Assembly: GCA_021769885.1 (NCBI GenBank) | Contig: JAETSA010000007.1 | Coordinates: 62,001 to 126,000 of the forward strand | Reading direction: 5' to 3' | DNA from: Bacillota bacterium | Lineage (GTDB): Bacteria; Bacillota; Clostridia; Oscillospirales; Acutalibacteraceae | Length of the DNA stretch: 64,000 bases | In this document: piece after piece, positions 1,139 through 12,344 of the stretch | Layout: every line of letters starts with the position of its first letter | Numbering within the stretch: the first letter of the stretch is position 1 | Position numbers and translations under genes: made by a program | The notes under the pieces: generated by a model | What the model was told of the DNA's origin: nothing | Seen by the model: only the letters and a program-made list of their open reading frames with translations | The model's database searches: none

Positions 1139-1999
1139 TTACAGAATCGATGAAAGATTGCGCATAATTGCGCCTGCGACCTCGGGGCGGTTCATTGTGT
1201 AAATGTGAATCCCGTTTACGCCGTTGGCAATCAAATCAATAATCTGCTCGGTTGCATACGCGATACCCGCCTGCTTGAGGGCTTCGGGGTCGTCGGAGAA
1301 TTTGTCAATCATCACTTTAAAGCGGGAGGGCAGTGTAGTGCCCGAAAGTGCGCAGGAGCGCTCAATCTGCCGCTTATTGATAACGGGCATAATGCCTGCG
1401 AGTACAGGAACGTCTATGCCCTTTTTCAATGCACGGTACAAAAAGCTGTAAAGCGCGGTATTGTCAAAAAACATCTGCGTCACCAAAAAGTCCGCGCCGC
1501 AGTCCACTTTTTCTTTTAAATGCTCTAAATCCGCTTCGGGACTTGCCGCCTCGACGTGCCCCTCAGGGTAGCACGCCGCACCGACGGAAAAGCCGCCGAT
1601 TTCCCGCAAAGCGGTAACCAACTCGCTCGCATACTGATAATGATTCCCGTCGGGCGCGTAATTTTCAGGCAAATCGCCGCGCAGTGCGAGAATATTCTCA
1701 ATCCCCTTGGATTTCAAATCCGACACGATACGCGCAATTTCCTGCTTACTGCTCGACGCGCAGGTCAAGTGCGCCAATGCAGGGATATGCAAATCGTTTT
1801 GAATATGCGCCGCAATTTTCGGCGTATTTACGGAAGTACCGCCGCCTGCACCGTAGGTCACGCTGATAAAATCGGGACAAAAGCCCGACAGCGTATCGAT
1901 TGCCGCTTCGACGGGCGCATATGCCGCATCATTTTTCGGCGGAAAGACCTCAAAAGAGGTGGTGCGCACCTTATTTTTTAACCGTTCGGAAATTTTCAT
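1139..1999 (-). CDS. metF: Methylenetetrahydrofolate reductase
   Basis: A 286-residue FAD-dependent TIM-barrel enzyme that reduces 5,10-methylene-THF to 5-methyl-THF, the methyl donor for cobalamin-dependent methionine synthase. Family hallmarks are the N-terminal SFEVFPPK motif (residues 15-22), FISVTYGAGGG near 45 and ALRGD near 105, with normal full length. Its start overlaps the stop of the ECF S component (ATGA). It lies in the cobalamin-riboswitch operon, so 5-methyl-THF supply is probably co-regulated with vitamin B12 uptake. No metH or metE is present in the window. Confidence 0.95.
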   Translation of the reverse strand: MKISERLKNKVRTTSFEVFPPKNDAAYAPVEAAIDTLSGFCPDFISVTYGAGGGTSVNTPKIAAHIQNDLHIPALAHLTCASSSKQEIARIVSDLKSKGIENILALRGDLPENYAPDGNHYQYASELVTALREIGGFSVGAACYPEGHVEAASPEADLEHLKEKVDCGADFLVTQMFFDNTALYSFLYRALKKGIDVPVLAGIMPVINKRQIERSCALSGTTLPSRFKVMIDKFSDDPEALKQAGIAYATEQIIDLIANGVNGIHIYTMNRPEVAGAIMRNLSSIL

Positions 2000-2550
2000 A
2001 AAGCTTCATCATCCAAATCCATATATTTCAATCGAATACGTTCCGCGCGGCGCAGAAACGGCATTGTAAGAAAAACCAAAAACAGTGCGGTTGAACCCAT
2101 ATGTGCCGCATTAAACAAAAGCGATGCGGACAAAGACGCCAAAATCGCAGAGAGCGTTAGCGGTCTTACAAAAAAAATCACATTCCAAGTATCTAATATC
2201 ATACCATAAAGCCCCGCGCAGAACAAGCCGAACAGCACGATTTTCCACAGTTTGTCGCGGAATTTACAGTTTGTTAACAAACCCGAAAGCAAGCCCACAA
2301 GCCCCCACGCAAGCATTTGTGCGGGTGTCCAAAGCCCCTGGCCGAAATAAAAATTCGACAAAAGTGCCGCAAGCGCACCCGTCAAAAATCCGCTTGCAGG
2401 TCCGAACGCCATCCCCGACAGAATGACAATCGCCGTGGTTGGCTTGAAATTCGGAATCGGTGCGAAGGCAATACGTCCGAATACCGCGAAGGCAGTCATC
2501 ACGGACACAGACACCATACGCGGCAGGGTGAAGAATTTACGCTTTGCCAT
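1996..2550 (-). CDS. ECF transporter S component, probable cobalamin specificity subunit (CbrT-like)
   Basis: A 184-residue, very hydrophobic protein with about six membrane segments. The motif GMAFGPASGFLTGALAALLSN is typical of ECF substrate-binding (S) subunits. The start ATG has GGAGGTGC just upstream and overlaps the end of the ATPase gene by 14 nt. It sits in one operon with the T and A components behind a cobalamin riboswitch, so the substrate is most likely cobalamin or a corrinoid precursor. That assignment rests on the regulation and the neighbours, not on a substrate-specific residue I can identify. Confidence 0.8.
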   Translation of the reverse strand: MAKRKFFTLPRMVSVSVMTAFAVFGRIAFAPIPNFKPTTAIVILSGMAFGPASGFLTGALAALLSNFYFGQGLWTPAQMLAWGLVGLLSGLLTNCKFRDKLWKIVLFGLFCAGLYGMILDTWNVIFFVRPLTLSAILASLSASLLFNAAHMGSTALFLVFLTMPFLRRAERIRLKYMDLDDEAL

Positions 2551-4168
2551 TCCGCACCTCCGAAAGAGAAACAGGACGGGCTTCGGGTACCGTGTCTTTG
2601 AACACTTGTGCTACTGAAGAAGTATAAACCGTACCGCTTGTAAAAAAGCTGCGGCGTATATCCTGCAAAACAAATTCACCGTCGAACAGCAGTGCACAGC
2701 GGTCGGCAAGCTCTGCGGCAAAATCCAAATCGTGCGTCACAAACAAAATCGTTTTGCCCGCCGCACGCAAATCGCGAAGCACCGCGCATAACGACTGTTT
2801 ACACGCAGGGTCAAGCCCTTTGGTCGGCTCGTCGAACAGCAAAACAGCAGGATTTTTTAAAAGGGCGGCACCAATCGCCACACGCTGCTGCTGCCCTGCG
2901 CTCAAATCAAAGGGATTGCGGGAAAGCAGTGCGGAAAGCCCGAGTGCTTCGGCAATTTCCTGCACATGGGAATTTACAGGGGCAGGCTCCGGCGTACCGT
3001 TAAACAGCTTGAAAAGCGTTTTTGCCGTCGGCGGCACTGCGGCGGCATTGAGGATTTCGCCGACGGTGTCAAAGGCAAAGCAGGTCTGCGGATTTTGCGG
3101 CACAACCGCGCAGGAGAAATCTGCAGCACGCTTGACTTTGCCGCTGTAAGGGGTCAGCTCCCCCGAAAGCAGATGCAAAAAGGTCGTCTTTCCCGCACCG
3201 TTTGCGCCGATGACGGCGAAGCTGTCACCGCGGCAAAGCGTGAAATCCACCCCGCGAAGCACATCTTCGCCCCCTCTTTCATACCGAAATGCGGCGTGCT
3301 TCAGAGAAATCAGCGGGTCTCCGCGCGGAATTTCATTCTGTTCAGGCAGGCACAGCAATACCGAATGTGCCTGCATCAAGCTTCGGCACTGCCCAAGCGT
3401 TTTCGGGACAAGCTCATCAGTCGGCACACCCGCCGCAGCCGGCACAGCGACAGACGGTGCGGCGGTCGGGTACGCTTGCAAAAATGCGTCGGCACTGTCA
3501 TACGATGTGCACGTACCGTGCGCCAACACCAAAACCTGTGTAAGGAAAGGTAAAATCGGCTGAATATTGTGCTCCGTCAAAAGCACCGTCACGCCCAAAT
3601 CTGTATGCAGCTTTAAAAGCGCACGCAAAAACCGTTCGCTTGAGAATGGGTCGAGCATAGAAAACGGCTCGTCCAAAAGCAACAGGCGCGGCGAACAGAC
3701 AAACGCCGCCATTAAATTGACCAACTGCTTTTCGCCGCCCGAGAGGGTTTGGATTTTGCGGTTATATAAATCCTGCGCGCCGAAAAAGCTGACGGTTTCG
3801 GCAATTTTTAAACGGATTTCCGCCTCGGACAGTCCCAAATTTTCGGGCAAAAACCGCAATTCATTGCGCACATATTCGGAAACCTGCTGTGTATCGGGGT
3901 TCTGTGCAGTAAAGCCTATTTCCTTTACAGAATGCTCATAAGGCAGTTCAGCAATCGGATTTCCGCAGAAATCCAAGGTACCCGCACGTCTGCCTTTCGG
4001 CGCGATTTCGTTCTTTAAAAGGCGCAGGAGCGTGGTTTTGCCGCTTCCTGATGCGCCGTACAGCAATACGAATGCACCGTCCGCCACTGAAAAGGATATC
4101 GAATCCAAAACCGATGATGCCGCGCCCGCATATGTAAAGGTTAAATCCTTTGCACTGAGAATTTCCAT
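2537..4168 (-). CDS. Energy-coupling factor ATPase, two fused ABC domains (CbiO/EcfA type)
   Basis: A 543-residue protein with two complete ABC ATPase units in one chain. The N-terminal unit has Walker A GASGSGKTT, signature LSGGEKQ and Walker B LLLLDEPFS. The C-terminal unit has GANGAGKTT, LSAGQQQR and VLLFDEPTK. It replaces the EcfA/EcfA' heterodimer that powers ECF import through the T subunit. The start at MEILSAKDLTF was chosen over an upstream in-frame ATG because GGAGGTG lies 6-7 nt before it. It overlaps the T component gene by 28 nt. It belongs to the cobalamin-riboswitch operon. Confidence 0.93.
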   Translation of the reverse strand: MEILSAKDLTFTYAGAASSVLDSISFSVADGAFVLLYGASGSGKTTLLRLLKNEIAPKGRRAGTLDFCGNPIAELPYEHSVKEIGFTAQNPDTQQVSEYVRNELRFLPENLGLSEAEIRLKIAETVSFFGAQDLYNRKIQTLSGGEKQLVNLMAAFVCSPRLLLLDEPFSMLDPFSSERFLRALLKLHTDLGVTVLLTEHNIQPILPFLTQVLVLAHGTCTSYDSADAFLQAYPTAAPSVAVPAAAGVPTDELVPKTLGQCRSLMQAHSVLLCLPEQNEIPRGDPLISLKHAAFRYERGGEDVLRGVDFTLCRGDSFAVIGANGAGKTTFLHLLSGELTPYSGKVKRAADFSCAVVPQNPQTCFAFDTVGEILNAAAVPPTAKTLFKLFNGTPEPAPVNSHVQEIAEALGLSALLSRNPFDLSAGQQQRVAIGAALLKNPAVLLFDEPTKGLDPACKQSLCAVLRDLRAAGKTILFVTHDLDFAAELADRCALLFDGEFVLQDIRRSFFTSGTVYTSSVAQVFKDTVPEARPVSLSEVRNGKA

Positions 4169-5013
4169 TTGCACACCTCCCACAGCTTCGCAAGACAGGG
4201 TATAAAGTAAAATACAGCTATCGGCACGTAAATCCATATCGATTCAAAATACGCCGGCGGACGAAAACGCGGGTAAATTTCCACCCGCAAAGGCGGTGCA
4301 AGAAACATCACACACACTGTTGCCGCACTGAACAGCAGGATGACCGCATTCCAAACCGAAAATCGGTATTTCTGCCGTGTGCGCTTTGGGTCCAGCATCG
4401 CACCGCGCGCTTTCATCGACACGGCAGTCTCGAAGGAATCCTCCAAAACCCACGAGAACAAAGCCGACAGGCGCAAAAAGCGCGCCGTCAGCTGACTGTG
4501 CTTGTCCGCAGACACCGGCAGTGCCTTGCGGGTCTGTTCATATTTTTGCAGCGTTTTCGGCACAAGTGCCATAGAAAGGGAAAAGATGACGGCAAGTCCG
4601 CGTGAAATGCCCGAAAACAGGCGGTAAATGCGGTCGGCATCCAAAAATGCGCAGAAAAAGGAAAACCACATTGCCGCGCCTGTAAAATGCAGTGCGGAAA
4701 ACAGTGCGTAGAGCACAGATTCCAGCGTGACCGCCGCATCGCCGATATAAAACAGCACAGTCAGCCCGTTGCGGTTGAACAGCAAATTGAACAGCACAAG
4801 TGCGCCCCCTACCGGCAGACAAAAATGCAACAGGGCGCGCAACTCGTTTCTTTGCCCATAGCAAAGGAACGAAAGCACACCCGAAAGAACGCAAAGCACC
4901 GCGAGCACAGGCTGTACGCGCGTAACGGTTACAACCGAAACGCAAATAAGCAGCCATAAAAGCGTACCCGTATGCAATTTGTAAAACAAGGTTCGGTTAA
5001 TATGCACCGACAT
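4141..5013 (-). CDS. ECF transporter transmembrane (T) component, CbiQ-like
   Basis: A 290-residue integral membrane protein, the EcfT subunit that couples the ATPase to the S subunit. It has several long hydrophobic segments and the family ARG motif in SMKARGAMLDPKRTR near residue 215. The start MSVHINRTLFYKL was preferred to an in-frame upstream start because the upstream part would lie inside the DUF4430 gene and lacks membrane character. The remaining overlap with that gene is 17 nt. It sits between the DUF4430 lipoprotein and the double ATPase in the riboswitch operon. Confidence 0.88.
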   Translation of the reverse strand: MSVHINRTLFYKLHTGTLLWLLICVSVVTVTRVQPVLAVLCVLSGVLSFLCYGQRNELRALLHFCLPVGGALVLFNLLFNRNGLTVLFYIGDAAVTLESVLYALFSALHFTGAAMWFSFFCAFLDADRIYRLFSGISRGLAVIFSLSMALVPKTLQKYEQTRKALPVSADKHSQLTARFLRLSALFSWVLEDSFETAVSMKARGAMLDPKRTRQKYRFSVWNAVILLFSAATVCVMFLAPPLRVEIYPRFRPPAYFESIWIYVPIAVFYFIPCLAKLWEVCKWKFSVQRI

Positions 5014-5686
5014 CCCCCATTCTGCAAGTGTAAATAAACTCCACGCGGTCGCCCGCCTGCAGGGTGTAGTATTTGCAGGAAACATTCGGAAGTTCCCCAT
5101 TGACACGGTACATCCAGCCGCTCGTTTCGCCGCAATCCTTTTCCGCGAGTCCCGCGATGCTGACAACATAGCCGCCCGAGGTGATTTGACACACGGTTTT
5201 CTGCGATTTCAGCGCACGTTTGAGCACTTTCATCACAGATTCACCCTCGGTAAACTGCACATTCGCATCCGAAAAAATCACGCCGTTTTGCGGCAGAGTA
5301 TCTTTGAAGTTCGGATTTTCAAGAATCCCGTAATCAATGGCATTTTTGCAGTCTACAGTCAAAGAAACCGTATTCTGTTTTGGGGGCGCGGCGGGCGGTT
5401 GTACATCCTGATTTTCAGGCGGTACAGTCACGCCGTTTGCTCCCGTATCCGATTTCGGCGTACTATCCGCAGTCTGCGCAATTGCAGGCGGCTTCCCATT
5501 CGAATCAGGCGTAGTTTTACCGTTTTCGGACGATGACGCCGATTCCGCAGGCGATACAGCCGTATTTTCCGAAACCGCACTGCTTTCCGCAGGCTGTTCG
5601 GACAAGCCCTCTGCTGTGGGCTGTTTTTGGCAGGCGCACAGCAGAAGGCATAAAATCAAAAGTAAAGGTAAAACGCGGTTATGCAT
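4997..5686 (-). CDS. DUF4430 lipoprotein, transcobalamin/intrinsic-factor C-domain-like
   Basis: A 229-residue predicted lipoprotein. A hydrophobic leader ends in LLLCAC, giving a lipid-attachable Cys19, although the Cys at -2 is unusual for a lipobox. Residues 20-105 are a Ser/Glu/Pro-rich disordered linker. Residues 106-229 form a DUF4430 domain with the characteristic SGWMYRVNG (189-197) and a terminal beta-rich stretch. DUF4430 is the fold of the small C-terminal cobalamin-binding domain of animal transcobalamin and intrinsic factor. The gene overlaps the alpha-barrel gene upstream by 8 nt and the T component downstream by 17 nt, all behind a cobalamin riboswitch. Inference: it captures corrinoid at the outer membrane face for the ECF importer. 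Confidence 0.85.
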   Translation of the reverse strand: MHNRVLPLLLILCLLLCACQKQPTAEGLSEQPAESSAVSENTAVSPAESASSSENGKTTPDSNGKPPAIAQTADSTPKSDTGANGVTVPPENQDVQPPAAPPKQNTVSLTVDCKNAIDYGILENPNFKDTLPQNGVIFSDANVQFTEGESVMKVLKRALKSQKTVCQITSGGYVVSIAGLAEKDCGETSGWMYRVNGELPNVSCKYYTLQAGDRVEFIYTCRMGDVGAY

Positions 5687-6812
5687 CTTTTTTACGAAGC
5701 ACTAAGACCGCACCTGCGCAAAGCACAGCGACAAACGCGCCTGTAGCCGTTACGGCAGAACCCGTTTTCGGAATCTCCACCGTCTGCGCACTATCCACCG
5801 TTGTTGTATTTTCAGGAACGGACGGTGCAATCGGATTGGGATTCGTCGGCTCTTCCGCTTTCGGGGCATAGGTGAACACGCTTTCGCGATTTTCGGCATA
5901 GCGGTTTGCGGCATTCAGCGCAAGCAATACCTGATATGTCGTCAACGGGTCTTGTGCGCCCTGATAATTCATAGCACCGCCGTTTTCGCTAATAAAGCTT
6001 TTCACGCCGTCCAACAGGGTTTTGCCGTTGTTGGTATAGGCACTGTCGGTGGGATTTATCCCCAACTCGCAAAGTGCCAAAACGAACTGTGCGGTGGACT
6101 CTCCGCTCGGCGCACCCCAAGCCTCCAGTGCGCCTGTTGCGCCGATTTGTGCCCGCAAATATGCAAGGGCTTTATCAACAGCTCTGCCGACCGCCTCGTT
6201 TTCCGCATAATACGGTGCTAACGCCTGCACGGTCATAGAGGTGCTGTCTGCATCGGAATATACGCCGTAGCCCTGATCCACAGAGCAATATGCCCAACCG
6301 CCGTCGGGCTGTTGTACCGACAGAATCGCTTCTACAATCCCGTTTTTCAGAGAATCTTCAAACGGGAAATCCGATTTAAAATTCATTGCAAGCAACGGCG
6401 CATTTAAGCTTGAAAGATAAATTTGCGCGCTGTAATCCACTGCGGCAAGGGCGGCCAATAAATCGTGACCGCCGATTTTTTTAGCATCCATTCCGTTTGC
6501 CGTTACTGCCAATACGGTACGCGCCAAGTCACTCGGATACATTTTATCGAACGAAGCGGCAACTGCGGCATTTATGTAGTCCGCATATTCCGCAGGTGCG
6601 CTTTTCCCTGCACGGGAAAGTGAGAACGCCGTCCAGTCAATTAAGTTATCGACGAACGAGGTTTCCTCATAATCGAACTGCGTATTTTCGGGATTTCCGA
6701 GCCACGCGGCAACTTTGTCCGCCTCAAGGCTGTACGGCGCGGCAAAAGCAGTCATACAAAGCATAGAGAGTATGCAAAGCACTGCCAATACGCTGAGAAC
6801 TTGTTTTTTCAT
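5679..6812 (-). CDS. Wall-anchored alpha/alpha-barrel protein, intrinsic-factor N-domain-like
   Basis: A 377-residue surface protein. Residues 1-24 are a signal peptide ending TAFA. Residues 30-310 are helical repeats of the squalene-cyclase/prenyltransferase alpha6-alpha6 type, with QQPDGGWAY at 167-175, DSTSMTVQAL at 189-198 and repeated ALxxLG units. A Pro/Thr-rich spacer follows, then IPKTG (347-351), a hydrophobic span and RKKDA, a sortase sorting signal. The start was chosen for AGGAAG 8 nt upstream. Animal intrinsic factor joins this barrel type to a DUF4430-like domain. Here the two halves are separate overlapping genes, first in the B12-riboswitch operon. A terpene-cyclase role is unlikely because the protein is exported. 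Confidence 0.85.
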   Translation of the reverse strand: MKKQVLSVLAVLCILSMLCMTAFAAPYSLEADKVAAWLGNPENTQFDYEETSFVDNLIDWTAFSLSRAGKSAPAEYADYINAAVAASFDKMYPSDLARTVLAVTANGMDAKKIGGHDLLAALAAVDYSAQIYLSSLNAPLLAMNFKSDFPFEDSLKNGIVEAILSVQQPDGGWAYCSVDQGYGVYSDADSTSMTVQALAPYYAENEAVGRAVDKALAYLRAQIGATGALEAWGAPSGESTAQFVLALCELGINPTDSAYTNNGKTLLDGVKSFISENGGAMNYQGAQDPLTTYQVLLALNAANRYAENRESVFTYAPKAEEPTNPNPIAPSVPENTTTVDSAQTVEIPKTGSAVTATGAFVAVLCAGAVLVLRKKDA

Positions 6813-6887
6813 TTTAAAACTTCCTTTCTTTTTTGTGTTTTGCCGAAAACGGCGAATATTCGGTTTTGTTGATTCCTCCTTTCCGAC

Positions 6888-6923
6888 AAAAAAAGCGGGA
6901 CGCCCCAAAAATGGGAGTCCCGC
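6888..6923 (-). terminator. Intrinsic terminator of the cobalamin riboswitch leader
   Basis: On the minus strand a G+C-rich hairpin (GCGGGACTCCC, loop, GGGGCGTCCCGC) runs straight into seven T residues. It lies about 95 nt after the aptamer and about 75 nt before the first gene of the operon. This is the arrangement of a transcription-terminating expression platform. It suggests that bound adenosylcobalamin stops transcription of the uptake operon. Confidence 0.85.
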
Positions 6924-7016
6924 CCGATGCACAACAAAAGAAAGGTATATAAAGTTTCCTTAAATACCGTGATTTTGCCTGCATACTTCTCTCCCACCGA
7001 AAGAATTTTTGCACCT

Positions 7017-7215
7017 TGCAGGCAGGTCTCCTGACTTATACTTCTAACCATACGAACACGCGTGTGCTATGGTTAACCGCACGCCGCCTTCCCAAGAGCA
7101 CGGCTCTCAGTGGCATTCGGCGCGCACACAGTATCTACAGTAGCGGGGGCTGTCACGGATTTTGACCGTGTTCCCTTTTCACCGCGAAAAAGCTTTCGCG
7201 ACACCTGCAAGATAT
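7017..7215 (-). ncRNA. Cobalamin (B12) riboswitch aptamer
   Basis: The minus strand carries the canonical class landmarks in order: AAAAGGGAACACGGT near the 5' side, GACAGCCCCCGCTACTGT, GCCACTG, GGGAAGGCGG, and the 3' B12 box AAGTCAGGAGACCTGCC. The closing P1 helix pairs TTGCAGGT with ACCTGCCTGCAA. The 5' end begins only about 7 nt after the stop codon of the upstream electron-transfer gene. The downstream operon codes for a complete ECF corrinoid uptake system plus metF, which fits repression by intracellular cobalamin. Confidence 0.95.
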
Positions 7216-7221
7216 TTTATT

Positions 7222-10050
7222 TTAGAAGCTTTCACAAAACTCGGAAATTACGGTGCTGTTGTCGTTCCAGTTGTAACCGCCGCCGTTTCGAATCACTTCT
7301 TTTTCAATTATACCATTTTCCAAAGAATTTGCAAGCACAGGATATGCAGTCTGCAATTCGGCAAACACTTTGTCTGCGGTCTTTTCTTCTGTACCGCAAA
7401 GCTTCGAGAGCACTGCGAGTGCCGTCGGCAATTCTGTTTTGACTGCCGCACGCTGTGTGCAGACTGTGCCGTCCGCTTTGAGGTAATGCCCGCTGTTCGC
7501 CGTGAAGGGCGCTGTAAAGATTTGTGCGGAGCTTTCTGCTGTATATGCCCCTGAAAGCTCGACGGTGTAGTTTGCCGAAACTGCCGCAGATTTTTTCACA
7601 TCCAACAAAATCGCCGCTTTTTCGCCGCGATAAGCGAATACCGATTCAATCCCAAGCAGCTTCACACCCGCGAATGCAGCCGATTTCTCTGTAACATCGG
7701 CATACACATTCGGGAAATTCGCCTTTGCAAATGCCGCTTCTTCCAAAGTCGCCGTCGGGCCGAGTACAACGGCAACACTGTTGCCGTACTGCTTTACGGT
7801 TTCCGCAATTTCACAAACCTTCTCATTGGAAACGGGCGGCAGTTGATTATTTGCCGCGAAGATGCCGAAACGACCGCCTTTGCACAGCAGTCCCTGTTCG
7901 CCGACAGGCAACGCGCGCATCACGGTTTTGCCTAAGAAACGCAAATCGGTTTTGCAAAGTGCCGAGCAGAAATTGCACACGGATTCGACCGCATTTTCTT
8001 TCACGGGCACGCGCTTAATGACCGGCTCTTTTTCACGCAGTGCACCTGTCGGACAAACGGTGACGCACTGCCCGCAGAACATACAGCTGCTCTCCTCCAG
8101 CGGTAAGCTGTATTCGGGGCTGACAACCGTATGGAAGCCTCTGCCGAGAAGCCCGAGGTTCGTTTTGCCCATGGCTTCCTCGCACACGCGCACGCACAGT
8201 CCGCACAAAATGCATTTGTCGGTATTGCGGGCAATCAGCGAATTTACATTTTCTTCGTTGCGGTGATGCTTTTCACCTTGGAAACGTTCGGGTTTTACAT
8301 CATACTGATTCGCGTAGGAAATCAGCTTGCATTCGAAATAATCGTGACAGCCGCATTCTAAACACCGCTGAGCTTCTTTTTTCGCCGCTTCCTCTGTTAG
8401 ACCTAAAGAGACTTCGTTAAAGTTGGTTTTGCGCGTCTCTGCCGACAACTGCGGCATTTTTGCGCGCGGTTTTTTCTCGAATTTTTTGAAAAACTCGAGC
8501 GGAATTTCACGCTCCACAAAATACGGCTTTTTATAGCGTGCCGCTTCGCCGTGGAGATAACGGTCGATAATCACCGCGGCTTTCTGCGCCTCGCCGATGG
8601 CGGCAATCGCAATGGATGCCCCTTTGTTGGTCATATCGCCCACCGCGAACACACCGTCTAACGAGGTGCGGAAGGTTTCTTCATCCGCCGAGACGGTATT
8701 GCGCTTGGTCGATTCCACACACTCGAAGCCTGTAAGATTCGGATACTGCCCGATTGCCATAATCACAGTGTCTAAGGTGAGCTCCTCGGTTTCGCCCTCA
8801 ATCGGCTCGGGGCGGCGGCGTCCGCTCGAGTCGGGCACGCCCAACTGCATTTTTTGCAGCGTCGCGCTGACCTTGCCGTCCGCATCTTTAAACGCAATCG
8901 GAGAGGTCAGATATTTAAACTGCACGCCCTCTTCCTCAGCTTCGACGATTTCTACATCCTCGGCAGGCATTTCGTCACGCGTGCGGCGGTAAATGACATA
9001 GACATTTTCCGCGCCTAGACGCACGGCTGTACGGCAAGCGTCCATAGCGGTGTTGCCGCCGCCGACAATCGCCACGGTTTTACCGATTGCCATCGGCTCG
9101 CCGAGTGCGACCGTCCGCAGGAAATCGATACCGCCGACAACTGCGGGGTGGTCTTCGCCCTCGACACGCATTTTACTGCTGTTCCAAGCACCTGCCGCCA
9201 ACACGACTGCGTCATATTCCGCACGCAGTGCTTCAACGGTTGTATCCTGCCCGATTTTTACGTTGTTGCGCATTGTAACGCCCAAATCGGCAATCTGTTT
9301 GATTTCTTTATCTAAAAGGCTTTTCGGCAAACGGTATTCGGGAATGCCGTAACGCAGCATACCGCCCATTTTCGGCATTGCATCCAAAACCGTGACGCTG
9401 TGCCCCTGACGGCGCAGGAAATACGCCGCCGTAAGACCAGCAGGACCGCCGCCGACAACAGCAACGGTTTTGCCTGTATCGGGTTCAACCGACGGCACAT
9501 ACGGCGTCGCGCTTGCCATATCCATATCGGCAGCGAAGCTTTTTAAGAAAGCAATGGAAATCGGTTCATCCACAAACTGACGGCGGCACTGCTTTTCGCA
9601 CGGATGCGGGCAAACTCTGCCGATAGACGAGGGCAGCGGGATTTTTTCTTTAATAAGTCTGGTTGCCTCGGTGTATTCTCCGTTGGCAATTAAGCCGACA
9701 TAGCCCTGGCAGTCGGTGCCCGCAGGGCACGCTTTGGTGCACGGTGCTTTGCAGTCGCCGTCGTGGTCAGATAAGAGGAGCTCCAACGCGACCTTACGTG
9801 CACGCACAACGCGTTCGGTATCGGTATGTACGACCATACCGTCCGTTGCCTTTGTGGAGCAAGCGCGCAGTAATTTCGGCGTGCCCTCTACCTCCACGAC
9901 GCAAAGTCCGCACGCGCCGTACAATTCGACACGTCCGTCATAGCAAAGATTCGGAATTTTCAATCCGTTATCGGTCGCCGCCCGCAAAAGGGTCGTACCC
10001 GCTTCCACGGACAAAACGTGATTATCTATTGTAACAGTAATTTTGCTCAT
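7222..10050 (-). CDS. Fused ferredoxin / GltD-like flavoprotein / NuoG-like iron-sulfur protein
   Basis: A 942-residue multidomain electron carrier. Residues 1-75 are a [2Fe-2S] ferredoxin domain (Cys36, 47, 50, 64). About 95-165 is the GltD-type Fe-S entry domain. About 190-525 is an FAD/NAD(P)H oxidoreductase with VVGGGPAGLTAAY (198-210) and a second dinucleotide fold (AIVGGGNTAMD, about 330). Near 620-675 are two ferredoxin clusters (CILCGLCVRVC, CMFCGQCVTVC). Near 700-735 is a molybdopterin-type Fe-S site (CNFCSALC). The last 200 residues are a weak NuoG-like tail. No H-cluster motif and no evident molybdopterin catalytic domain is present. It forms an operon with nuoF- and nuoE-like genes and resembles subunits of flavin-based bifurcating complexes. 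The catalytic partner is not in the window. Confidence 0.85.
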   Translation of the reverse strand: MSKITVTIDNHVLSVEAGTTLLRAATDNGLKIPNLCYDGRVELYGACGLCVVEVEGTPKLLRACSTKATDGMVVHTDTERVVRARKVALELLLSDHDGDCKAPCTKACPAGTDCQGYVGLIANGEYTEATRLIKEKIPLPSSIGRVCPHPCEKQCRRQFVDEPISIAFLKSFAADMDMASATPYVPSVEPDTGKTVAVVGGGPAGLTAAYFLRRQGHSVTVLDAMPKMGGMLRYGIPEYRLPKSLLDKEIKQIADLGVTMRNNVKIGQDTTVEALRAEYDAVVLAAGAWNSSKMRVEGEDHPAVVGGIDFLRTVALGEPMAIGKTVAIVGGGNTAMDACRTAVRLGAENVYVIYRRTRDEMPAEDVEIVEAEEEGVQFKYLTSPIAFKDADGKVSATLQKMQLGVPDSSGRRRPEPIEGETEELTLDTVIMAIGQYPNLTGFECVESTKRNTVSADEETFRTSLDGVFAVGDMTNKGASIAIAAIGEAQKAAVIIDRYLHGEAARYKKPYFVEREIPLEFFKKFEKKPRAKMPQLSAETRKTNFNEVSLGLTEEAAKKEAQRCLECGCHDYFECKLISYANQYDVKPERFQGEKHHRNEENVNSLIARNTDKCILCGLCVRVCEEAMGKTNLGLLGRGFHTVVSPEYSLPLEESSCMFCGQCVTVCPTGALREKEPVIKRVPVKENAVESVCNFCSALCKTDLRFLGKTVMRALPVGEQGLLCKGGRFGIFAANNQLPPVSNEKVCEIAETVKQYGNSVAVVLGPTATLEEAAFAKANFPNVYADVTEKSAAFAGVKLLGIESVFAYRGEKAAILLDVKKSAAVSANYTVELSGAYTAESSAQIFTAPFTANSGHYLKADGTVCTQRAAVKTELPTALAVLSKLCGTEEKTADKVFAELQTAYPVLANSLENGIIEKEVIRNGGGYNWNDNSTVISEFCESF

Positions 10051-11804
10051 CAGTGTACCTCCACCGCGCCGAAGTTACAGTTTTCAGCGCATTTTCCGCA
10101 TTTGATGCAAATTTCGGGGTCAATGCTGTGTACTTGCTTCACCGCACCCGAAATGGCGTGCACAGGGCAGTTCCGCGCACACTTGGTGCATCCGACGCAT
10201 TTTTCCGCGTTAATTTCATAGGAAATCAGAGCCGTGCATTCGCCTGCGGGGCATTTTTTATCGGTAATATGCGCTTCAAACTCGTTGCGGAAATAACGAA
10301 TTGTGGTAAGCACGGGGTTGGGTGCGGTCTGCCCGAGTCCGCACAGCGCACCGTCTTTAATCGAATAGCAAAGCTCTTCGAGAAGCTCTATATCGCCGTC
10401 GCGTCCTTCGCCGTCCGCAATGCGCGTGAGTACCTCGAGCATACGCTTTGTACCGAGTCTGCAATGCACGCATTTACCGCAGGATTCCTTAGCAGTGAAG
10501 TCGAGGAAGAACTTCGCCATACCGACCATACAGGTATCCTCATCCATAACGACCATACCGCCCGAGCCCATAATCGCGCCTGTTGCGCCGAGTGCTTTAT
10601 AGTCGATGACGGTATCCAAAAGTGCCTCGGGAATGCAGCCGCCCGAAGGACCGCCCATCTGCACAGCTTTGAACTGCTTGCCGCCGCGAATCCCGCCGCC
10701 GATATCAAAAATGACGTCGCGCAAAGTTTTGCCCATCGGGATTTCCACAAGTCCGCCGCGCCGCACCTTACCTGTCAGCGCAAACACCTTTGTGCCCTTA
10801 CTGCCCTCTGTGCCCATGGCGGCAAACTTCTCGCCGCCGTTTAAAAGGATCCAAGCGACATTTGCAAAGGTTTCTACGTTATTGATGTTGGACGGCTTGT
10901 GCCAATAGCCTGCCTGTGCAGGGAACGGCGGTTTTAGACGCGGCATACCGCGACTGCCCTCCAAGGATTCAATCAGTGCGGTTTCTTCGCCGCAGACGAA
11001 CGCACCTGCGCCCGCCTTAATGCGCATTTTGCAGGAGAAGCCGCTGCCGAGAATATTTTCCCCGAGGTAGCCTTTTTCCTCCGCCTGATGAATGGCATTT
11101 TCCAAACGTTTAATCGCGAGCGGATATTCCGCGCGAACATAGACAATCATTTCTTTTGCGCCGATGGCATAGGCACCGATGAGCATACCCTCAATCAGAG
11201 AATGCGGGTCGCCCTCTATAACGGCTCTGTCCATAAACGCGCCGGGGTCACCCTCATCGGCATTGCAAATGAGATATTTTTCTTCGCCGTCCGAGCTTCT
11301 TGCGGCGTTCCATTTAAACCACGTCGGGAAGCCTGCGCCGCCGCGCCCCGCAAGGCCTGAGATTTTGATTTCTTCAATCACCTGTTCCGGCGTCATCTCT
11401 GAAAGCACCTTGCGGATTGCCTTGTAGCCGTCGGTGTTTTCATAATCTTCAATGCTTTCGGGGTCAATCACACCGCAGTGCCGCAGGGCAATACGGGTTT
11501 GCTTGCTTAAAAATTCCGCATCCTCGTTAGAAATTTTAAGGTTATCCAAGGCGGACAAATCCTGATTCTGTACGGCGACAACGATTTTTTCGGCATCCGC
11601 CGCAGTCACTTTCACAAGACGGGTCAAATCGCCCGATTCGTCATAAATATCGACAATCGGCTCTAAAAAGCACATGCCGTTACAGCCTGTAATGCGCAGT
11701 TCGAACGCTGTGTTTTCCGTGTTCAGTGCTTCCAGTGCATCATATACCTTCTGCGCGCCTGCGGCAATGCCGCAGCTGCCCGCGCCCACAACCACTTTCA
11801 TCAT
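10050..11804 (-). CDS. NuoF/HydB-like NADH-binding flavoprotein subunit
   Basis: A 584-residue FMN, NADH and Fe-S subunit. The N-terminal 100 residues are a thioredoxin-like ferredoxin domain with Cys11, 41 and 45. The NuoF core has GRGGAGFPTWFKW, NADEGDPGAF and CGEETALIESLEG. An N3-type cluster is formed by ESCGKCVHCRLG and a later Cys. The C-terminal 60 residues add two ferredoxin clusters (CVGCTKCARNCP, CIKCGKCAENC), as in HydB/HndC of bifurcating hydrogenases. GGAGGG lies 9 nt before the start, which overlaps the nuoE stop. It oxidises NADH and passes electrons to the fused flavoprotein. Confidence 0.93.
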   Translation of the reverse strand: MMKVVVGAGSCGIAAGAQKVYDALEALNTENTAFELRITGCNGMCFLEPIVDIYDESGDLTRLVKVTAADAEKIVVAVQNQDLSALDNLKISNEDAEFLSKQTRIALRHCGVIDPESIEDYENTDGYKAIRKVLSEMTPEQVIEEIKISGLAGRGGAGFPTWFKWNAARSSDGEEKYLICNADEGDPGAFMDRAVIEGDPHSLIEGMLIGAYAIGAKEMIVYVRAEYPLAIKRLENAIHQAEEKGYLGENILGSGFSCKMRIKAGAGAFVCGEETALIESLEGSRGMPRLKPPFPAQAGYWHKPSNINNVETFANVAWILLNGGEKFAAMGTEGSKGTKVFALTGKVRRGGLVEIPMGKTLRDVIFDIGGGIRGGKQFKAVQMGGPSGGCIPEALLDTVIDYKALGATGAIMGSGGMVVMDEDTCMVGMAKFFLDFTAKESCGKCVHCRLGTKRMLEVLTRIADGEGRDGDIELLEELCYSIKDGALCGLGQTAPNPVLTTIRYFRNEFEAHITDKKCPAGECTALISYEINAEKCVGCTKCARNCPVHAISGAVKQVHSIDPEICIKCGKCAENCNFGAVEVH

Positions 11805-12307
11805 ACGTTCGCGCCCTCCTTCGCCTGTGCGGTCAATTCTGCTAAGATTTTTTTCGCTTTATCAGGCGTTAAACTGCCGTAGGTTTCCTCGTTAATCATC
11901 ATCACGGGCGACAGACTGCAGCAGCCGAGGCACGCCACATTTTTCAGGGTAAACAAACCGTCCTCGGTGGTTTCGCCGTCGTGAATGCCTAAGGTCTCCG
12001 TAATCGTTTTTTCAATCAAGTCCGAGCCGTTTACGTGGCACGCCGTGCCTTTGCAAAGCATAATTAAATATTTGCCGACAGGCTTTAAACGGAATTGCGT
12101 GTAAAAGGTCGCAACGCCCATAATTTTGGCGGGTTTTACCCCTGTTTTTTCCGAAATATGACGAATCACGTCCTGCGGCAAATAGCCATATATCTCCTGT
12201 GCTTTTTGTAAAATCGTAATCAAGCTGCCGTCAACATTTGCATATGTATCAAGCACCGTGTCTAAAAGCGACAAATCGCTGTGCACGTTTTTGCAGCTGC
12301 ATTCCAT
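11801..12307 (-). CDS. NuoE/HydC-like thioredoxin-fold [2Fe-2S] subunit
   Basis: A 168-residue subunit of the NADH-oxidising complex. The helical N-terminal part (QEIYGYLPQDVI) precedes a thioredoxin-like ferredoxin with the four cluster cysteines in MLCKGTACHVNG and ACLGCCSLSP. The start at MECSCKNV was chosen because GGAGG sits 7 nt upstream; an in-frame ATG further upstream has no such site. It is the first gene of the three-gene NuoE-NuoF-fusion operon. The fourth N-terminal-region cysteine pair (ECSC) is extra to the family cluster. Confidence 0.93.
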   Translation of the reverse strand: MECSCKNVHSDLSLLDTVLDTYANVDGSLITILQKAQEIYGYLPQDVIRHISEKTGVKPAKIMGVATFYTQFRLKPVGKYLIMLCKGTACHVNGSDLIEKTITETLGIHDGETTEDGLFTLKNVACLGCCSLSPVMMINEETYGSLTPDKAKKILAELTAQAKEGANV

Positions 12308-12344
12308 TGGTTTTCCTCCCAATATCCATTAAAATTATTCGTAC

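Follow-up and report, generated by a model that had tools for sequence, protein, structure and literature searches.

Predicted corrinoid capture by a split, intrinsic-factor-like protein pair in a riboswitch-linked ECF importer operon of a Clostridia genome

The animal vitamin B12 (cobalamin, Cbl) binders transcobalamin (TC), intrinsic factor (IF), and haptocorrin (HC) combine an alpha/alpha barrel with a C-terminal beta domain (DUF4430) in one chain, and the available part of one study reports that TC-alpha and TC-beta expressed as separate chains depend on Cbl for their assembly (PMC5599065). The same two domain types are predicted in a 64,000-nucleotide (nt) stretch of DNA, here called the window, from a Bacillota bacterium of the family Acutalibacteraceae (assembly GCA_021769885.1, contig JAETSA010000007.1, positions 62,001 to 126,000). 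In contrast to the animal proteins, the system of the window is bacterial and is divided over two overlapping genes, the products of which each carry an envelope-anchor signal, and it lies beside the genes of an energy-coupling factor (ECF) importer. We consider it likely that this locus is a riboswitch-repressed operon for corrinoid capture and import, in which two surface halves would hold corrinoid and pass it to the ECF importer.

The closest bacterial systems are those of Burroughs et al. 2007, the available portions of which (PMC1796856) predict B12-scavenging proteins with toroid and transcobalamin-like SLBB domains in low-GC Gram-positive bacteria. These proteins are described there as exported, some with Gram-positive anchors, and as encoded in CbiO/CbiQ operons of hosts usually lacking B12 synthesis; a transfer of transcobalamin-like domains to animals and the pairing of paralogous extracellular SLBB proteins in complexes are also proposed. 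A transcobalamin-type SLBB domain, an alpha/alpha toroid, a CbiO-type gene, and the lack of a CbiC match are all seen in the present case, and a CbiQ-type T component is assigned by context. The original prediction, made from the sequence of the window, had allowed that related operons may have been described, and a system of this kind was indeed predicted in those portions of the 2007 paper. They deal, however, with toroid-SLBB fusions, whereas the window has separate neighbouring genes with different anchors, a cobalamin riboswitch, and a CbrT-like S component. The other close relative is ECF-CbrT (6fnp; PMC5997447), which resembles the present importer in its S component over nearly the full length and in the accompanying T-position and A-A genes of the operon. 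The window differs from it in that its module is dedicated, has a fused A-A, and is preceded by genes for surface capture, an extracellular capture protein not being mentioned in the available portions of that source. Searches of the open-licence literature gave no report of a split pair with an anchor on each half, such absence being weak evidence, and no experimental work after 2007 on bacterial barrel or DUF4430 proteins was recognised. Collectively, the system belongs to a known kind predicted in 2007, and its split, double-anchored form is apparently undescribed.

The riboswitch and the two surface proteins

A cobalamin riboswitch ahead of two overlapping genes had been claimed originally, and this is borne out by an RF00174 aptamer match on the minus strand at 7004-7223, which covers model positions 1-189 with 113.5 bits (E 1.1e-27; gathering threshold 31.5 bits), and by minus-strand genes for the barrel protein (5679-6812) and the DUF4430 protein (4997-5686) that overlap by 8 nt (5679-5686). 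Between the riboswitch and the barrel gene, an inverted repeat (6895-6905/6913-6923) and a terminator scan mark an intrinsic terminator hairpin followed by a U run on the same strand (6892-6923), for which the fold reaches -24.3 kcal/mol against a shuffle mean of -13.2 (z -4.5). This hairpin is likely to be the expression platform of an OFF switch. Chance is excluded for both the riboswitch and the DUF4430 matches.

The DUF4430 protein of 229 amino acids (aa) starts with a lipobox-like LLCAC and continues through a long linker to a C-terminal domain matching PF14478 (E 6e-19; 68.7 bits against a cut-off of 23.8), in agreement with the linker-bearing lipoprotein foreseen by the original prediction. 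PF14478 is a domain of the transcobalamin C-terminal region, according to the available part of the source (PMC4350170). Within the window clade, the hydrophobic segment of the DUF4430 proteins ends in cysteine. Single-sequence and profile searches of the PDB with this protein gave no credible match.

The barrel protein (377 aa) has an N-terminal hydrophobic signal, a modelled barrel at approximately residues 28-320, and a tail composed of IPKTG, a hydrophobic stretch, and RKK, a sorting-type signal of which IPxTG is kept in all nine of the closest aligned barrel sequences. The genome holds five sortase matches, and the NCBIfam anchor models score below cut-off on this protein. No Pfam family reaches its cut-off; the alpha/alpha-barrel call is based on the AlphaFold2 (AF2) model (predicted local distance difference test, pLDDT, 88; predicted TM-score, pTM, 0.81; 84-sequence alignment) together with the family profile. 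A single-sequence PDB search gave no credible match, a profile search matched cyclases, and the model also matches GH88/GH105 and GH76 proteins. As modelled, the barrel on its own is a generic alpha/alpha barrel and is not diagnostic of intrinsic factor. Thus, of the exported helical barrel with an IPKTG anchor that had been proposed, the signal, the modelled barrel, and the tail stand, whereas TC or IF is not singled out by the barrel alone.

A clearer likeness is given by the natural fusion L068, which consists of a barrel, two hydrophobic helices, and DUF4430, and whose model (pLDDT 85.6, pTM 0.78) has its DUF4430 part covered by 16 of 39 alignment rows. The 15 best of its 554 PDB matches obtained with Foldseek are all TC, IF, or HC (E 1.5e-9 to 4.4e-7; 542-573 alignment columns), and the next-best match reaches 4.2e-5 over 291 columns. 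Moreover, the isolated TC beta domain matches L068 separately, with target TM values of 0.74 (5no0) and 0.70. The models thereby support the homology of the two domains with those of the animal B12 binders. Structure prediction with comparison had been suggested as the check on the two proteins being halves of an animal-type IF/TC; its outcome is divided, since the one-chain relative ranks TC/IF/HC first, but the barrel alone ranks cyclases first and the packing of the domains is unconfirmed.

Fusions with hydrophobic segments between the barrel and DUF4430 were also met in L043 (7089-8927), L088 (7983-10094), and L095 (5862-7526), in addition to L068 (7836-9500). A pair of such segments separates the two domains in L043, L068, and L095, and L088 has two hydrophobic segments with a lipobox-like internal FLCSC; with segments paired in this way, both domains would sit outside. 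The solved Ruminococcus gnavus "putative metal binding protein" 3u7z also matches the L068 model (123 columns, E 3.2e-3, target TM 0.68), probably over its DUF4430 part, and judging from the modelled match it may be a corrinoid binder of the DUF4430 family.

Recurrence and anchoring of the pair among relatives

A set of 59 related genomes, the own genome included, was searched together with eight close orthologous regions (L025-L032). Barrel matches with E of 0.001 or below occur in 20 of these genomes, and all 22 regions extracted around such matches outside the own genome also hold DUF4430, as detected by a profile built here. The barrel and DUF4430 are separate neighbouring genes in all eight close regions, seven of which have the riboswitch. 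The association is also visible from the riboswitch side, as a same-strand DUF4430 gene lies within 10 kb downstream of 46 of the 52 cobalamin riboswitches matched in the 59 genomes (three of the 52 below the gathering score); from the other side, a same-strand riboswitch lies within 10 kb upstream at 48 of 72 DUF4430 places. DUF4430 occurs in 47 of 149 genomes from across the phylum, with riboswitch linkage in 38 of the 47; four of the other nine have no RF00174 match at all. The count of co-occurrence named as a check in the original prediction thus comes out in favour of linkage. One relative, G006, has two barrel-DUF4430 sets, namely C1 (L032), which is without riboswitch or ECF genes, and C8 (L046), which has both. 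In L132, L133, L134, L135, and L148, DUF4430 comes first and a very divergent barrel (37-39 bits) second, with a riboswitch upstream and no close ECF match adjoining.

A wider collection based on barrel homology comprises the best 80 of at least 564 loci, from named Clostridia, Ruminococcus bromii, Flavonifractor plautii, Paenibacillus, Cohnella, Desulfosporosinus, and others; because five loci (L047-L050 and L125) are common to both genome sets, the counts are not added. A DUF4430 gene lies directly 3' of the barrel gene in 56 of the 80 loci, and in 39 of these the barrel chain is without DUF4430, which is the arrangement of the window. The remaining loci comprise five with a one-chain barrel-then-DUF4430 protein and no following DUF4430 gene, nine in which the barrel gene ends within 900 bases of the locus end, three with DUF4430 only ahead of the barrel in the same chain, and seven with none of these arrangements, four of which (L078, L080, L102, and L116) have a DUF4430 gene just upstream. 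In some order, DUF4430 is part of the barrel chain in 30 of the 80. An upstream riboswitch on the same strand is present in 45 loci (20 of the 39 clean pairs) and on the other strand in one, these counts being lower bounds owing to short contigs and having been obtained with a model built from nine riboswitches of the family. Relatives of the A-A and S genes occur in 54 and 51 of the 80 loci, respectively.

The attachment of one half to the wall and the other to the membrane, as originally suggested, is consistent with signs of envelope anchoring in both protein families. Pfam scanning of 47 of the 56 barrel C-terminal tails, the other nine being 25 aa or shorter, found S-layer homology domains in 22 and type I dockerins in 8. 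A per-locus assignment, made with regular-expression patterns and by eye for L064, L077, and L104, matches these totals and gives 21 S-layer and 2 dockerin tails among the 39 clean pairs. All 63 stand-alone DUF4430 genes scoring above 110 bits encode a hydrophobic segment ahead of the domain, nine of them lipobox-like by a simple pattern. These sequence features suggest that outer attachment of the barrel and membrane attachment of DUF4430 recur, mainly by means of S-layer domains, and the split, double-anchored form looks common. The barrels of L094 and L109 lack a tail, and their N-termini are lipobox-like; barrels may therefore in some cases be lipoproteins too.

Dockerin-ended barrels were seen in L061 (7014-8999), L065 (6918-8996), and L066 (7095-8996) (Ruminococcus bromii), and also in L058, L071, L077, L083, and L104, with Pfam E values of 2.3e-9 for L061, 5.9e-9 for L083, and 3.5e-11 for L058. 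Six of the eight, R. bromii included, also carry their own DUF4430. In such loci, cohesin scaffolds may serve as docking sites for corrinoid capture.

Importer genes, neighbourhood and host

The original prediction placed the ECF T, A-A, and S components next in order, and their positions at 1996-5013 lie outside the interval of 4997-7215 to which it had assigned the system. The S and A-A components are confirmed by families. The S component (1996-2550, minus strand) is above cut-off for PF12822/PF07155, and its sole credible PDB match is 6fnp chain A (ECF-CbrT), with E 1.1e-8 over residues 4-172; a folate S family is matched below threshold (E 8e-7, 28.9 bits against a cut-off of 60). The double ATPase A-A (2537-4168, minus strand, with an inferred ATG start at ~4168) contains two PF00005 copies (E 7.6e-51) and scores above cut-off for TIGR01166 (cbiO) and below cut-off for TIGR04520/04521. 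The transmembrane protein in the T position (4141-5013, minus strand; ATG at 5013 inferred from sequence) has no Pfam family at E of 1 or below and no credible PDB sequence match, and it is a predicted T component from gene context, its homologs lying beside A-A/S genes in related loci. ECF genes adjoin the pair in three of the eight close orthologous regions (L025, L029, and L030), and L031 is a short contig of 3.9 kb. All nine genomes tested, the own genome included, contain a single S component of this type, and an A-A gene lies approximately 300 bases or less from it.

The metF gene for methylenetetrahydrofolate reductase (1139-1999, minus strand; PF02219 and TIGR00676 above cut-off) is a further operon partner, overlapping the S gene by 4 nt. 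The putative T gene overlaps the DUF4430 gene by 17 nt, again with the inferred ATG at 5013, and with the inferred starts every consecutive gene pair from barrel to metF overlaps; the translation of these genes is therefore probably coupled. The minus-strand order is accordingly promoter-like site, riboswitch, terminator, barrel, DUF4430, T, A-A, S, metF, and a DUF5685 gene (234-1121; family match) 3' of metF, which is present in six of the eight close orthologous regions. The promoter-like site (7307-7334, minus strand) lies within the 3' end of the upstream gene and is a consensus match only (TTGCAA-16-TATAAT with TG). That gene ends at base 7222, and the riboswitch match thus shares its first two bases with the stop codon. 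Large upstream genes (7222-12322), which presumably encode iron-sulfur/NAD-type oxidoreductase subunits, end at the riboswitch, and similarly sized genes lie upstream in seven of the eight close regions.

In the host genome, CbiC, the only protein searched for corrin synthesis, gave no match, and there is no FecCD match, that is, no BtuC-type importer. A single PF02310 match lies inside a B12-dependent methionine synthase on the same contig as the window. It is therefore probable, from these genome searches, that the host is unable to build the corrin ring and takes up corrinoid chiefly to make methionine, with which the presence of metF in the operon fits.

Proposed capture route and its alternatives

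In the proposed mechanism, low cellular B12 (adenosylcobalamin) would leave the terminator unformed, and the two surface proteins would be made; this derepression step follows from the riboswitch and terminator. The barrel half would be fixed outside by its wall sorting signal and the DUF4430 half would be carried by a lipoprotein with a flexible linker, and corrinoid would be held between them as a ligand joining both chains. Such capture is suggested by homology to TC/IF and by the Cbl-dependent assembly of TC-alpha and TC-beta, as given in the available part of the study (PMC5599065). The membrane-tethered half would then hand corrinoid to the CbrT-like S component, as the operon structure and the CbrT match suggest. 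The surface location of each chain, the corrinoid binding, the ligand-driven closing, and the hand-over are all inferred.

Several observations weigh against this reading. The TC/IF structures were part of the AF2 training data, and by sequence, profiles of the barrel or DUF4430 find no TC, IF, or HC chain at E of 1 or below. The full-length superposition of L068 on these proteins is poor, with a root-mean-square deviation of 9-17 Å, and how the two domains are arranged relative to each other is therefore not confirmed. With the barrel alone, Foldseek ranks drimenyl-diphosphate synthases, which are type II terpene cyclases, first (6.0e-5) and transcobalamin only thirteenth (E 4.9e-4). The contextual links also have gaps: L032 (extended from L009), one of the eight close regions, shows no riboswitch in two scans; 24 of the 72 DUF4430 places have no riboswitch within 10 kb upstream; 35 of the 80 loci show no same-strand upstream riboswitch, some through contig ends; no barrel match was found in 12 of 17 extra hand-picked DUF4430 regions; and ECF genes are absent from four of the eight close regions (L026, L027, L028, and L032). 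In addition, 17 of the 56 barrel chains followed by a DUF4430 gene carry their own DUF4430, so that the second gene need not be the sole partner. These 17 loci resemble the paralogous SLBB complexes suggested in the available portions of Burroughs et al. (PMC1796856), who may have seen this arrangement as a second SLBB protein.

Among the alternatives, it is unlikely, but best sustained, that the DUF4430 lipoprotein alone binds corrinoid for the ECF importer, with the barrel doing a separate job at the wall, such as enriching corrinoid or binding a protein that carries it, and no shared site. Such a division would agree with L136 (2958-3889), L137, L138, L139, L143, and L147, where a riboswitch is directly followed by a small DUF4430 lipoprotein-like protein and a 172-177-aa protein with no barrel; of the 172-177-aa proteins, only that of L136 was searched in the PDB, where it matches 6fnp_A (E 1.5e-4). 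The two domains are, however, adjacent or in one barrel-then-DUF4430 chain in 61 of the 80 loci, with nine more ending near the locus end, and both domains of the fusion L068 match TC/IF/HC. Capture of another ligand, such as cobalt, folate, alpha-ribazole, or another tetrapyrrole, is improbable: metF in the operon and the sub-threshold folate S match would suit it, whereas the cobalamin riboswitch, CbrT as the best S match, the TC-type folds, and the lack of a CbiC match in a genome that encodes a B12-dependent methionine synthase argue for corrinoid, and folate or cobalt as substrate was set aside on the riboswitch and the CbrT match. Least probable of all is an enzymatic role of the barrel, either terpene-cyclase-like or glycan-active, with co-regulation by coincidence, since the cyclase matches of its profile and model and the GH88/GH105 and GH76 matches of the model are opposed by its export signal, the envelope-anchor-type tails, the recurrence with DUF4430 and cobalamin riboswitches, and the B12 binders being matched first by the one-chain relative, and the terpene-cyclase-like reading was set aside on context.

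Beyond the capture operon itself, a broader and tentative proposal, which we regard as possible rather than probable, is that in Clostridia and Paenibacillus the intrinsic-factor fold would serve as a two-layer, ligand-closed bridge. Interchangeable modules (mostly S-layer homology domains, but sorting signals in the window clade and, in a few cases, dockerins) would keep the barrel in the outer envelope, and a lipid or helix would keep DUF4430 at the membrane, so that a single corrinoid joins both across the wall space and recruits the cargo to the ECF importer; animal IF and TC would be single-chain descendants.

In the gut there is competition for B12 and its analogues, and outer-membrane capture by Bacteroides is known. 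For Gram-positive gut bacteria, corrinoid capture outside the membrane has so far been predicted only, in the literature consulted as far as its text was available. The survey shows the pair to be widespread and linked to riboswitches. Because its two intrinsic-factor-like halves could be purified separately, the predicted capture is open to direct testing, and the pair has a bearing on whether the animal B12 carriers came from bacteria, as has been proposed.

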